From the NCBI RefSeq assembly GCF_004364775.1, contig NZ_SOAL01000009.1, positions 124,001-188,000 on the forward strand: a stretch of DNA of 64,000 nucleotides, written 5' to 3'. Position numbers and translations under genes: made by a program. Shown here piece after piece: positions 33,239-36,363 of the stretch (its first letter is position 1; every line of letters starts with the position of its first letter). The notes under the pieces are model-generated. The model searched no databases. It had not been told where the DNA came from and worked only from the letters and a program-made list of their open reading frames with translations. The DNA is from Comamonas sp. JUb58. GTDB lineage: Bacteria > Pseudomonadota > Gammaproteobacteria > Burkholderiales > Burkholderiaceae_C.

Positions 33239-33961
33239 ATGCCCATTGCATTGCACAACTTCCTGTTTAACGTCTATCCCTACATCTGCCTGGCCGTCTT
33301 TCTGATGGGCAGCCTGGCGCGCTTTGACCGCGACCAGTACACCTGGAAGAGCGACTCCTCGCAGATGCTGCGCGCCGGCCAGCTGCGCTGGGGCAGCAAC
33401 CTGTTCCATATCGGCATTCTGTTCCTGCTGTTCGGCCACACGGTGGGCCTGCTCACACCGCATTTCATGTATGAGTGGCTGATCACCGCACCGCAAAAGC
33501 AGATGCTGGCCATCATCTCCGGCGGCACCGCCGGCCTGGTCTGCTTTATCGGCCTGAGCCTGCTGCTGCACCGCCGCATTGCCGATCCCCGCATCCGCCG
33601 CACCAGCCACCGCACTGACCTGGCCATCCTCATCATCCTGTGGGTGCAGCTGGTGCTGGGCCTGGCTACCTTGCCCGCCTCGTTCTCGCACCGGGTCGAT
33701 GCCCATGCGATGCTGGTGCTGGCCGACTGGGCCCAGCGCATCGTCACCTTCCGCCCCGACGCGGCAGGCCTGGTGGGGCTGGACTGGCAGTTCAAGGTGC
33801 ACATGGTGCTGGGCATGACGATCTTCCTGCTCTTCCCCTTCAGCCGCCTGGTGCATGTCTGGAGCGGGCTGGCCTCGGTCGCCTACCTGGCACGCCCCTA
33901 CCAGCTGGTGCGTGCGCGCCGTCTGAACCTGCCCAACAAACAGCAAGGAGGCCGCCCATGA
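33239..33961 (+). CDS. narI: Respiratory nitrate reductase gamma subunit NarI
   Basis: A 240-residue membrane cytochrome b that oxidises quinol and passes electrons through two b hemes to NarH. Five helices are predicted. Heme-ligand histidines are His57 and His67 in NLFHIGILFLLFGHTVG and two near the C-terminus in FKVHMVLG and SRLVHVWS. A GAGGAG site lies before the ATG. The stop overlaps the start of the next gene by 4 bases. Confidence 0.97.
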   Translation: MPIALHNFLFNVYPYICLAVFLMGSLARFDRDQYTWKSDSSQMLRAGQLRWGSNLFHIGILFLLFGHTVGLLTPHFMYEWLITAPQKQMLAIISGGTAGLVCFIGLSLLLHRRIADPRIRRTSHRTDLAILIILWVQLVLGLATLPASFSHRVDAHAMLVLADWAQRIVTFRPDAAGLVGLDWQFKVHMVLGMTIFLLFPFSRLVHVWSGLASVAYLARPYQLVRARRLNLPNKQQGGRP

Positions 33962-34854
33962 ACGCCGACCTGCACACCCCCACCGGTGGCTGCGGCAGCG
34001 CAGCCTGCAGCTGCCAGGACAGCCCCGCCGCCCCCAGCCTGCCCCGCATCGAAGCGCCACTCGGCGCACCGCGCGGTGCGCTGGCCGCTGCCCAGGTCAA
34101 CGGCATTGCGCTGTGCGATGCCGACGAGCTGCTGGACCCGATGGAGCTGCGCCAGCGCGCCTGCACCGAGCTGCTGCGCCAGGCCGCCCAGGCCCAGGGC
34201 CTGCTCGCTGCTGACGACCCCGTGCCGAGCGCCGGCGCCATCAGCGAAGCGGCCGGCAGCGCCATCGAGCAGCTGCTGGACGCCGAGCTGCAACTGCCCG
34301 AGCCCGACGACAACGCCGGCCGCCGCCACTACCAGGCCCACGCAGCCCGCTACGCCCGGGGCGAGCGCGTACGGGCACGCCATGTGCTCTTCGCCGTGAC
34401 GCCCGGTGTTGACATCAACGCCTTGCGCCAGCGCGCCGAGGCCTGCCTGCTGGATGTGCGCAGCGCCACTCCGCAAGAGCAGGCCACCGGCGACCGCTTT
34501 GCCGCCGCTGCCAGCGCCAGCAGCAACTGCCCCAGCGGCGCGCAGGGCGGCCAGCTGGGCTGGCTGCGCATCGAAGACTGCGCCCCCGAATTTGCCCGCG
34601 AGCTTTTCGGCCATGCCGAGGTGGGGGTGTTGCCGCGCTTGGTGCACAGCCGTTTTGGTCTGCATGTGGTGGAGGTGCAGGAGCGCGAGGCGGGCACCGT
34701 GCCGCCTTATGAGCAGGTGCGGGCCGCTGTGTTGCAGCAGTTGCGGCAGCAGAGTTTTGCGACGGGGTTGTCGCAGTATTTGCGGGTGTTGGCTGGACGG
34801 GCGCTGGTGGTGGGGGTGGATTTGGAGGGGGCGGAGACGCCTTTGGTGCAGTAG
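33958..34854 (+). CDS. PpiC/NifM-type peptidyl-prolyl cis-trans isomerase of the nar operon
   Basis: A 298-residue parvulin-like protein. The parvulin domain is at about residues 140-260 (RARHVLFAVTPGVD, GGQLGWLRIEDCAPEF, VHSRFGLHVVEVQEREAG). The N-terminus has a cysteine-rich patch, CGSAACSC (residues 11-18). A PpiC-type gene also follows narI in Pseudomonas aeruginosa, suggesting a role in folding or maturing nitrate reductase. Its start overlaps narI. From about 34620 onward the codons switch from C-ending to G/T-ending; the protein domain stays intact across the change. Confidence 0.9.
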   Translation: MNADLHTPTGGCGSAACSCQDSPAAPSLPRIEAPLGAPRGALAAAQVNGIALCDADELLDPMELRQRACTELLRQAAQAQGLLAADDPVPSAGAISEAAGSAIEQLLDAELQLPEPDDNAGRRHYQAHAARYARGERVRARHVLFAVTPGVDINALRQRAEACLLDVRSATPQEQATGDRFAAAASASSNCPSGAQGGQLGWLRIEDCAPEFARELFGHAEVGVLPRLVHSRFGLHVVEVQEREAGTVPPYEQVRAAVLQQLRQQSFATGLSQYLRVLAGRALVVGVDLEGAETPLVQ

Positions 34855-35021
34855 CTCTTTTGTTTGTTTGCTCTGTGCTGCAAGGCTATTGTTTTGGCAA
34901 CTGTGGTTGCTTTGATGACAGAGGCCGGGAGCGTCCAAGTAAGAGATGCTGACGGACTCAGCTGCCGTTTTATCTCTATTTTTCTGTCGAAGGACAGAGG
35001 CCGGATTTCGTCCGGCGGCCG
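34855..35021. other. Gene-free spacer after nar operon
   Basis: AT-richer sequence with no credible gene, no clear U-tract terminator and no recognisable regulatory site. It leads into the repeat array. Confidence 0.5.
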
Positions 35022-35273
35022 ACTCACTTTTCTTGCTCGCACAAGAAAAGTAAGCAAAAGAAGTGCGCCCCTGCTGTCTGCGACCCCTTCGCTGCGCTGC
35101 GGGGCAACCTGTGCTGAGACGTTTGCGGGCTGCGCCGTGGAACTCACTACGCGCTAAAGCGCTCCGTTCAAACAGCCACGGCGAGTCAGTTCACGAAGCA
35201 TGCGCGCTGTGGCGCGCATGCCAGCCCGCAAACGCCCCACCACAGGCGCATACAGAAGGGGGTGTAGTCCTCT
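35022..35273 (-). repeat. Dispersed repeat element, copy A (inverted)
   Basis: About 250 bases that are, with scattered mismatches, the reverse complement of 35769-36014. The outer end is a hairpin, CTTTTCTTG...CAAGAAAAG (35027-35050). Internal dyads include GCGCTAAAGCGC and a GCATGCGCGC...GCGCGCATGC hairpin. No open frame looks like a gene. The structure is that of a non-coding, possibly mobilised repeat. Confidence 0.75.
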
Positions 35274-35404
35274 CCCATGCCGAGCGCAGCGATGGCATTG
35301 CGGCTGCTGGACCCGTCTTCCCCCTTCTAGCCGTGCCGAGAAGCACAGACCCAGGGGTGGGCGTGTGCCGAAGGACACACGCTTCGTGAACATACTTGCC
35401 GCAT

Positions 35405-35645
35405 CTGTTTGAACGGAGCGCTTTAGCGCGTAGTGAGTTATGCGGCACGCCCCTGAGTCGAGCATCGCAGGTTGCCCCAGTGCCGCAGGCACTGGGGACA
35501 CGGATAGCAGGGGCGTGTTTCTTTGCTTACTTTCTTGCACGAGCAAGAAAGTGAGTCGCCTGCCGGGCGAAAACCGGCCTCAGGCCTGAAGGCCAAAGCA
35601 GGAGCCTGCATGGCTAAGAGCGATGGAATGCCGACCATCGCACGG
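35405..35645 (+). repeat. Dispersed repeat element, copy B
   Basis: This shares CTGTTTGAACGGAGCGCTTTAG (trimmed) with copies A and C, then diverges for about 80 bases. From 35506 to 35645 it is a direct repeat of 35964-36103 with about seven substitutions in 140 bases. The hairpin CTTTCTTGC-ACGA-GCAAGAAAG (35530-35551) is identical in both. A shorter hairpin GGCCTCAGGCC lies beyond. Confidence 0.75.
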
Positions 35646-35768
35646 TATTGCCGAGTTAATGGAGAAGCGTTGGCCACAGTGTCTGGTTTCTACTTCTTCT
35701 TTTGTTGAAGGACAGCAGGGGAAGAGGGGGCCAGCAGCCCCAAGCTGTCATCGCTGCGCTCGGCATCG

Positions 35769-36103
35769 GGGGCATTCCCCCTTCTGTATGCGCCTGTGGT
35801 GGGGCGTTTGCGGGCTGGCATGCGCGCCTAAGCGCGCATGCTTCGTGGACTGACTCGCCGTGGCTGTCTGAACGGAGCGCTTTAGCGCGCAGTGAGTTCC
35901 ACGGCGCAGCCCGCAAACGTCACGCCGCAGGTTGCCCCGTAGCGCAGCGGAGGGGTCGCAGACAGCAGGGGCGTGTTTCTTTGCTTACTTTCTTGCACGA
36001 GCAAGAAAGTGAGTCGCCTGCCGGGCGAAAACCGGCCTCCGGCCTGAAGGCCAAAGCAGGAGCCTACATGGCAAAGAGCAATGGAACGCCGACCATCACT
36101 CGG
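35769..36103 (+). repeat. Dispersed repeat element, copy C
   Basis: The longest copy. Its first 245 bases invert copy A and its last 140 bases repeat copy B directly. It contains the nested dyads GCATGCGCGCCTAAGCGCGCATGC and GAGCGCTTTAGCGCGC (written in part). It ends 40 bases before the DUF3079 gene. No transposase is present, so any movement would need an enzyme in trans, or the copies arose by recombination. Confidence 0.75.
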
Positions 36104-36144
36104 TCCCATAACCCACCCGCTGCAAGCATAAAAAAGCACACAAC

Positions 36145-36363
36145 TCAGCGATCGGCATCAACGCCACCCGCGCCAACATCATCCTCAGCAGGCTGAGAAG
36201 CCAAAGGATCCCACTCTGCCCAATCGGGCCCAAACAACTCCACCGGATGCGCCGACCGCTCCGACCCATTGCCGCAAGCCATCGACGACGCAGCGCAATA
36301 ACGGTCACACCCCCAGCAAGTCCGCTCAGGATGCGCAGGATGGATAGGAAAACGTTTGGCCAT
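36145..36363 (-). CDS. DUF3079-family small cysteine-rich protein
   Basis: A 72-residue protein, MAKRFPIHPAHPERTCWGCD at the start, followed by RYCAASSMACGNGSERSAHPVELFG. The CWGCDRYC...ACGNG cysteines and HPVELFG are the conserved core of DUF3079, an uncharacterised proteobacterial family. Three to four cysteines suggest a small metal-binding fold. It is oriented against the neighbouring operons and lies between the repeat array and the hemerythrin-narXL unit. The role is unknown. Confidence 0.82.
   Translation of the reverse strand: MAKRFPIHPAHPERTCWGCDRYCAASSMACGNGSERSAHPVELFGPDWAEWDPLASQPAEDDVGAGGVDADR

Follow-up and report, generated by a model that had tools for sequence, protein, structure and literature searches.

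Divergent structured repeat arms between genes of Comamonas and other Burkholderiales: an intergenic element family with an RNA-like fold

The window, a stretch of 64,000 nucleotides from Comamonas sp. JUb58, contains a repeat array (34993-36045) flanked by two convergent genes. On its left, directly after narI, lies ppiC, which encodes a rotamase (33958..34854, plus strand; gene call and Pfam PF00639), and on its right is the gene for a DUF3079 protein (36145..36363, minus strand; PF11278, E 1.7e-33), past which come a hemerythrin gene and then a narX-like kinase. The original prediction had set three repeat copies between the nar and narXL operons; the region is right and the three copies are present, their exact position being between ppiC and the DUF3079 gene, with the first starting about 30 bases ahead of the predicted boundary. 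Arm A (34993..35265, minus strand, outward direction leftward) scores 230.7 bits with nhmmer and 191.1 bits with a covariance model, arm B (35314..35584, plus strand, outward direction rightward) 203.3 and 148 bits, and arm C (35771..36042, plus strand) 238.8 and 185.1 bits. Motif typing assigns the three, in order, to types A, B and A. The divergent arms A and B are separated by an inner spacer (35266..35313) that includes GCCGAGCGCAGCGATGGC, read from the sequence, and an outer module 3' of arm B (35585..35646, plus strand) recurs 3' of arm C as a member of the same repeat family (36043..36104, plus strand).

Arm C is the inverse of arm A, as predicted: over 206 nt without gaps the two are 93% complementary, and with gaps allowed they match across 328-333 nt at 88% identity. 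The direct repeat described for arms B and C, 140 bases with about seven changes, is real, slightly longer and more diverged; it covers 153 nt at their outer ends with 93% identity, and the module 3' of arm B forms its tail. The end hairpin attributed to every copy, CTTTCTTGC...GCAAGAAAG, is exact in arms B and C, while arm A carries the variant CTTTTCTTG...CAAGAAAAG; genome-wide, the exact pattern TTTCTTGCNNNNGCAAGAAA finds arms B and C only, and its reversed control has no match. An inverted-repeat search places the 3' hairpins at 35023..35054 (minus strand, arm A), 35526..35555 (plus strand, arm B) and 35984..36013 (plus strand, arm C), the last two also found by pattern match. Past the closing stem of arm C the sequence reads TTTCTTT (35976..35982, plus strand), with equivalent pyrimidine tracts at 35518-35524 (plus strand) in arm B and 35056-35063 (minus strand) in arm A.

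The array holds no convincing gene, in keeping with the prediction: the three open reading frames that cross it have no Pfam match at E <= 0.01. No sigma-70-like promoter site was found in it. Terminator-like hits number five, against 1.8 (sd 1.7) in shuffles, and three of the five sit at corresponding positions, one at each arm's pyrimidine tract. Over the array and in 20 loci of the family, no Rfam family reached its gathering score, and sub-threshold resemblances to sbcD RNA (E 3.4) and ar35 (E 0.055) were judged to be chance. The sole Rfam match at gathering threshold in the window is a SAH riboswitch (RF01057, 3678-3790, plus strand, 58.3 bits).

The three repeats are members of a large family of structured intergenic elements, about 275-280 bases long, that appears not to have been described before. 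The host genome itself (5.46 Mb, 60 contigs) has two further loci, with three and two arms, making eight arms at three loci by the covariance model with up to ten candidates scored, and a DNA search matched 19 of 19 genomes of the genus, this one included. Some of these matches are fragments, with a single weak match in one genome (G004) and shorter pieces only in three (G005, G010, G011). Confinement to this locus as a local duplication, the outcome that the original prediction had named as fatal to its own reading, is ruled out by the other loci in the same genome and by the homologues in genus and family genomes. The DNA-only search matched none of 12 genomes from other families. An iterated profile gave 129 arm hits across 58 sequences, of which 106 were used to describe the arm as about 275 nt with a multibranch core, and 41 of the 42 arms selected, all but the shortest (from locus L113), went into covariance model R1, with 196 positions and 45 pairs. 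At E <= 1e-4 this model matches 153 of 299 genomes and 79 of 141 genera of the bacterial family, in a survey that was drawn evenly and scored up to eight candidates per genome, so that copy numbers are lower bounds. At the level of the order 16 of 250 genomes (10 of 120 genera) match, five of the 16 belonging to the family. At the level of the class five of 274 match, of which two are from the genus and three, outside the family, are weak; these weak sequences retain, by eye, the same blocks. The matches listed from a strict pattern scan include Comamonas, Delftia, Acidovorax, Variovorax, Rhodoferax, Hydrogenophaga, Ottowia, Ideonella, Rubrivivax, Rhizobacter, Aquabacterium and others. Other-family members are partly shorter (about 142 nt), being without the inner hairpins and keeping the closing stem and conserved loop. 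Shorter arms whose inner parts are absent also occur at L122 (G005) and L123 (G011), in the two searched genomes of the genus that gave no PF01797 match.

The usual unit is a divergent pair, with a leftward arm, a spacer and a rightward arm, often of two types and sometimes iterated. Among 91 clusters, 45 have exactly this form and 26 are single arms; iterated forms also occur, and arrays range from one to six arms. Where both arms of a pair are complete, the inner spacer is 23 to 134 nt long; spacers fall into at least two unrelated types, one of which is asymmetric and found in either orientation. Three pairs (L084 and L085 in G006, L101 in G001) are separated by about 0.75-1.7 kb, against the usual 100 nt or so; at L084 an open reading frame in the interval resembles LysR by eye, suggestive of gene insertion or capture between arms. 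Outer inverted repeats are present beyond the arms in other genera (18 arrays; 20.5 versus 10.1 in shuffles, 0/200) and more weakly in the genus (38 arrays; 10.6 versus 8.8, 3/200), and they were not used as evidence of mobility because several of the aligned cases are visibly a second, AT-rich repeat module. This module (about ATCAAAAAAGATAGCTGCT...AAGCGCTAGAGGCCAATTT) lies outside the pairs in other genera (flanks of L134, L136 and L146), and a similar AT-rich module serves as the inner spacer within the genus (several of L091-L126), in either orientation.

The members of a pair are not simply copies of one another. Average identity is 62% between the arms of a pair (39 pairs), 70.5% between arms from separate loci in a genome (358 comparisons) and 85.7% between same-orientation arms of one array. 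A plain long palindrome kept for pairing across the arms was therefore rejected, since pair partners are less alike than arms from other loci. In one clade, all 26 inverted pairs take one member from each of two sequence groups; among the remaining 13 pairs, six join different groups or subgroups and seven lie inside one subgroup. Of the 14 pairs or arrays in other genera that could be fully typed by motif, 11 combine type A with type B.

Each arm comprises a multibranch fold of about 200 bases, followed by the pyrimidine tract and hairpins. Across 151 arms the closing stem is followed by about five bases, six columns in which T or C makes up 97-100%, and then the 3' hairpins. The predicted inner dyads are borne out by arm C, which folds as RNA of the outward strand at -157.2 kcal/mol (z = -7.1, 0/200 shuffles as good), against -134.4 kcal/mol (z = -4.2) for the other strand. 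In the alignment of 41 arms, standard pairs fill 94.6% of cells, versus 74.1% (sd 0.7) when shuffled and 29-42% when the structure is slid; double compensatory changes occur in 34 of 45 pairs versus 27.4 in shuffles, and the covariation score is 0.580 versus 0.207. Each measure was reached in 0/500 shuffles. Because this alignment also supplied the structure, the slid comparison is favoured by construction, and the double changes are the stronger sign. The family thus resembles the structured RNAs of Rfam in the strong covariation of a conserved fold, which exceeds both shuffled and slid controls. An internal loop, UGUYUGAnCG...AGnGAGUU (35405-35445 in arm B, with equivalents elsewhere), could form tandem G-A pairs and reads as a kink-turn-like motif.

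The fold also distinguishes the strands. With G-U pairs allowed, the consensus energy of 151 arms is -82.9 outward versus -49.3 inward, and with G-U forbidden it is -48.6 versus -45.5. Among the 38 pairs that the two strands share when G-U is excluded from prediction, the outward strand has 130 G-U cells versus 42 A-C cells, and 103 A-G cells are also present; G-U is ahead in 21 of these pairs and A-C in seven, with 10 ties. By arm, 65 of 151 have more G-U and 12 more A-C, cells from related arms not being independent. The excess holds in the genus (108 versus 33) and is weak elsewhere (22 versus 9). The energy and pair tests omitted L131, L133, L135 and arms spanning 235 model positions or fewer. 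The results point to one folded strand, the outward one, acting as RNA or as single-stranded DNA. RNA is the simplest reading of the asymmetry and is favoured where the original prediction had written "RNA/DNA"; since single-stranded DNA also accommodates G-T, the strand test alone is no proof of RNA.

The same asymmetry bears on the idea that the array works in chromosome architecture as double-stranded DNA or a cruciform, for example as a site for gyrase or a nucleoid protein between convergent genes, as proposed for BIMEs. The convergent location and the alternating inverted arms do resemble BIMEs, but the two strands would be exposed alike in a cruciform, whereas G-U outnumbers A-C by about 3:1 on one strand, and the conserved multibranch fold with its loops exceeds what a binding site needs; an architectural role is accordingly judged distinctly unlikely. 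A pair of trans-acting small RNAs per unit, transcribed divergently from promoters in the spacer, would explain why the outward strand of each arm is the folded one and why two arm types are maintained, and the pyrimidine tract could bind Hfq. This arrangement is very doubtful given the array's lack of a promoter-like site, the spacers of variable length and unrelated types, and the presence of several copies per genome in varied contexts.

Gene context provides a different line of evidence. Where genes were called on both sides (88 clusters), 46 clusters lie between convergent, 38 between codirectional and four between divergent genes; without L133 and L135, duplicates of L082 and of the window, the figures are 46, 36 and four (86 clusters), and the one-sided L131 repeats L114. 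The window itself is tallied as codirectional because the gene caller missed DUF3079. All adjacent gene pairs at the same loci comprise 74 convergent, 170 codirectional and 46 divergent, and once the element gaps are subtracted some 28 of 202 background pairs are convergent. Single arms between codirectional genes are oriented with the genes in three cases and against them in six (a reading of the table, one duplicate dropped).

Array positions are shared between species. Ten locus groups are tied between species through their flanking DNA, most of them on both sides. At 33 of 70 arms the closest match is a paralogue in the same genome and not the orthologous site, including all 14 arms of G001, whose paralogues at different loci are 93-97% identical; at the other 37 the orthologue is the closer match, including all eight arms of JUb58. 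These comparisons show homogenisation in some lineages, not a general one. The recombination that the original prediction had expected is seen against the sister genome G013, where the unit of about 600 bases found in the window (genome G000) is inverted relative to both units (88-89%) while the flanks match at 91.5-95.9%; an inverted unit within matching flanks shows that rearrangement has taken place inside the arrays. At this locus G007 diverges after ppiC, as judged by eye from the printed sequence, and G017 gave no full match to the nar end.

The original prediction took the array for a non-autonomous mobile or structural element family, a description that is supported for dispersal and structure and not supported for current mobility, given the shared sites and the lack of any terminal target duplication seen. 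The direct repeats it had proposed to look for at the element ends show no excess in 35 pairs, the longest shared word averaging 3.49 versus 3.50 for shuffled partners (115/200 at least as high). An empty site with a target duplication was not seen, the only absence compared, that of L117 in G012 and G016, being a decayed remnant at the orthologous site. Direct similarity of the 80-nt flanks is slightly raised (7.7 versus 6.8 for shuffled partners, 0/200, 56 arrays; 8.1 versus 7.0, 1/200, in the genus), an unexplained excess of weak standing; both tests omitted L131, L133 and L135. Phage records gave no blastn match with one arm or one pair as query, and viral contigs none to two strict patterns, absences of limited sensitivity since the queries were single and the patterns recover only 32 and 33 of the 151 known arms. 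Among 72,556 plasmid records, two replicons matched, a 373-kb Comamonas and a 2.48-Mb Variovorax replicon. In the annotated copies, the Variovorax element lies between convergent genes, 51-57 nt from each stop, and that of Comamonas odontotermitis between codirectional genes. Carriage as phage or plasmid cargo was rejected on these grounds, at the sensitivities used.

A link to RAYT transposases was also sought. No arm lies within about 1.5 kb of 30 PF01797 genes (18 in 17 genomes of the genus, 12 in other families), nor in four longer stretches around four of these loci, and the PF01797 search revealed no transposase linked to the arms. Genes of this type, RAYTs as well as ordinary IS200 transposases being counted, are present in 222 of 299 genomes of the family, that is, in 114 of 153 genomes that carry the element and 108 of 146 that do not (odds ratio 1.03, p = 1; the two tables, of the same draw size, were paired by genome). 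A RAYT-driven REP/BIME system was rejected in light of the missing proximity and co-occurrence. One genome (G045, locus L351), with 14 PF01797 matches, seems to carry an expanded IS200-type family.

These results weigh on the view that the family is a selfish, non-autonomous mobile element, whose fold, as RNA or single-stranded DNA, would be needed for copying by a host or foreign enzyme and which would survive harmlessly downstream of genes. Such an element would account for the dispersed copies, the near-identical paralogues across the loci of G001, the arrays of varying arm number, the avoidance of promoters, the inverted ends and the weak flank similarity. Sites common to several species, the terminal-repeat result and decayed remnant, the lack of phage or viral copies at the sensitivities used and the want of association with PF01797 genes all count against it, and it is regarded as rather unlikely.

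REP and BIME sequences are the nearest likeness in layout. In the available portions of PMC2817692 and PMC3733652 these are intergenic, alternating inverted units located 3' of genes at convergent or unidirectional sites, palindromic and with compensatory changes; the REP unit is given as a palindrome of 20-40 bp that is usually present in more than 100 copies per genome. The present family has the extragenic, alternating inverted units, seen in the 45 divergent pairs and the iterated forms, whereas its arms are some 275 nt long with a 45-pair multibranch core, come in two types and number eight at three loci in the JUb58 genome. A high-copy unit of 20-40 bp, a RAYT flanked by cognate units and a correlation with RAYTs were not found, and the family, BIME-like in layout, is set apart by size, copy number and RAYT association. 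MITEs and Correia (NEMIS) elements are likewise short non-coding repeats with inverted ends; the family differs from them in having no target duplication seen, no cognate transposase found, and long, separately structured arms. BRE (Hot et al. 2011, PMC3110155), described in the accessible part of that paper as a tandem intergenic repeat of about 90 bp in Bordetella, Delftia, Acidovorax and other Comamonadaceae, one copy of which lies within an expressed sRNA region, is similarly repeated and intergenic and is a possible relative, the comparison being by description. Sequence-string and topic searches of the open-access literature found no description of the family; the available text of PMC3733652 and of one further paper does not mention Comamonas, Delftia, Acidovorax or Variovorax, and that of PMC2817692 does not mention Comamonas, Delftia or Acidovorax.

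For REP sequences a function as RNA has been argued from convergent and unidirectional location together with G-T pairing (PMC3733652, in the part available), and REP/BIMEs have been tied to Rho-dependent termination, mRNA stabilisation, transcription attenuation and gyrase binding (PMC2817692 and PMC2267715, as far as their accessible text goes). The reading preferred here, held tentatively and at somewhat less than even confidence, is of a mosaic, REP/BIME-like but much larger element in which two back-to-back structured arms may act through RNA at gene 3' ends. Transcription arriving from either flanking gene would pass the first arm as antisense and the second as sense, so that just ahead of the opposite gene a folded RNA would be made, followed by U-rich RNA and hairpins. 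The folded RNA and U-rich stretch would halt or attenuate transcription, perhaps together with Rho, or shield the 3' end of the mRNA, or do both, and a divergent pair would amount to a two-headed insulator between the genes. A role in termination or in mRNA stability is what we infer, and the comparison of ordinary terminators given below lent it no support.

This 3'-end model draws on the covariation, the outward-strand asymmetry, the conserved pyrimidine tract, the placement at 3' gene ends, the persistence at orthologous sites and some homogenisation. Four clusters between divergent genes and the codirectional setting of the Comamonas odontotermitis copy speak against it, as do the want of a sigma-70-like promoter in the array, the 103 A-G cells among the 38 pairs and the 37 arms whose closest match is the orthologue. 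The pyrimidine tract, about five bases past the stem, is unlike that of a canonical intrinsic terminator, which comes directly after, a point against reading the arms as terminators. Gene ends that face an array show no deficit of ordinary terminators (26 of 97 with a gap of at least 60, versus 21 of 93 controls, p = 0.51), and replacement of terminators by the element was rejected on this count. A pure terminator role is disfavoured because ordinary terminators are as frequent beside arrays as at controls and only three of the nine single arms between codirectional genes share their orientation.

A bolder interpretation is that the family constitutes a new class, a two-headed RNA insulator in which two different, separately conserved RNA domains of about 200 nt lie on opposite strands and the fold is made before the opposite gene is reached, spread through Burkholderiales, sparse elsewhere in the class, fixed in position and subject to gene conversion in some lineages. 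This is conceivable, and at present rather improbable.

A large, strongly covarying, RNA-like fold that over half of the genera sampled from a well-studied bacterial family possess, with no Rfam match in the tested loci, is a substantial gap. If the element acts at the ends of convergent genes, it would reveal how opposing transcripts are kept separate in these bacteria, and it would supply a larger relative, with a structure testable by compensatory mutation, for the REP/BIME elements, whose role is still debated.
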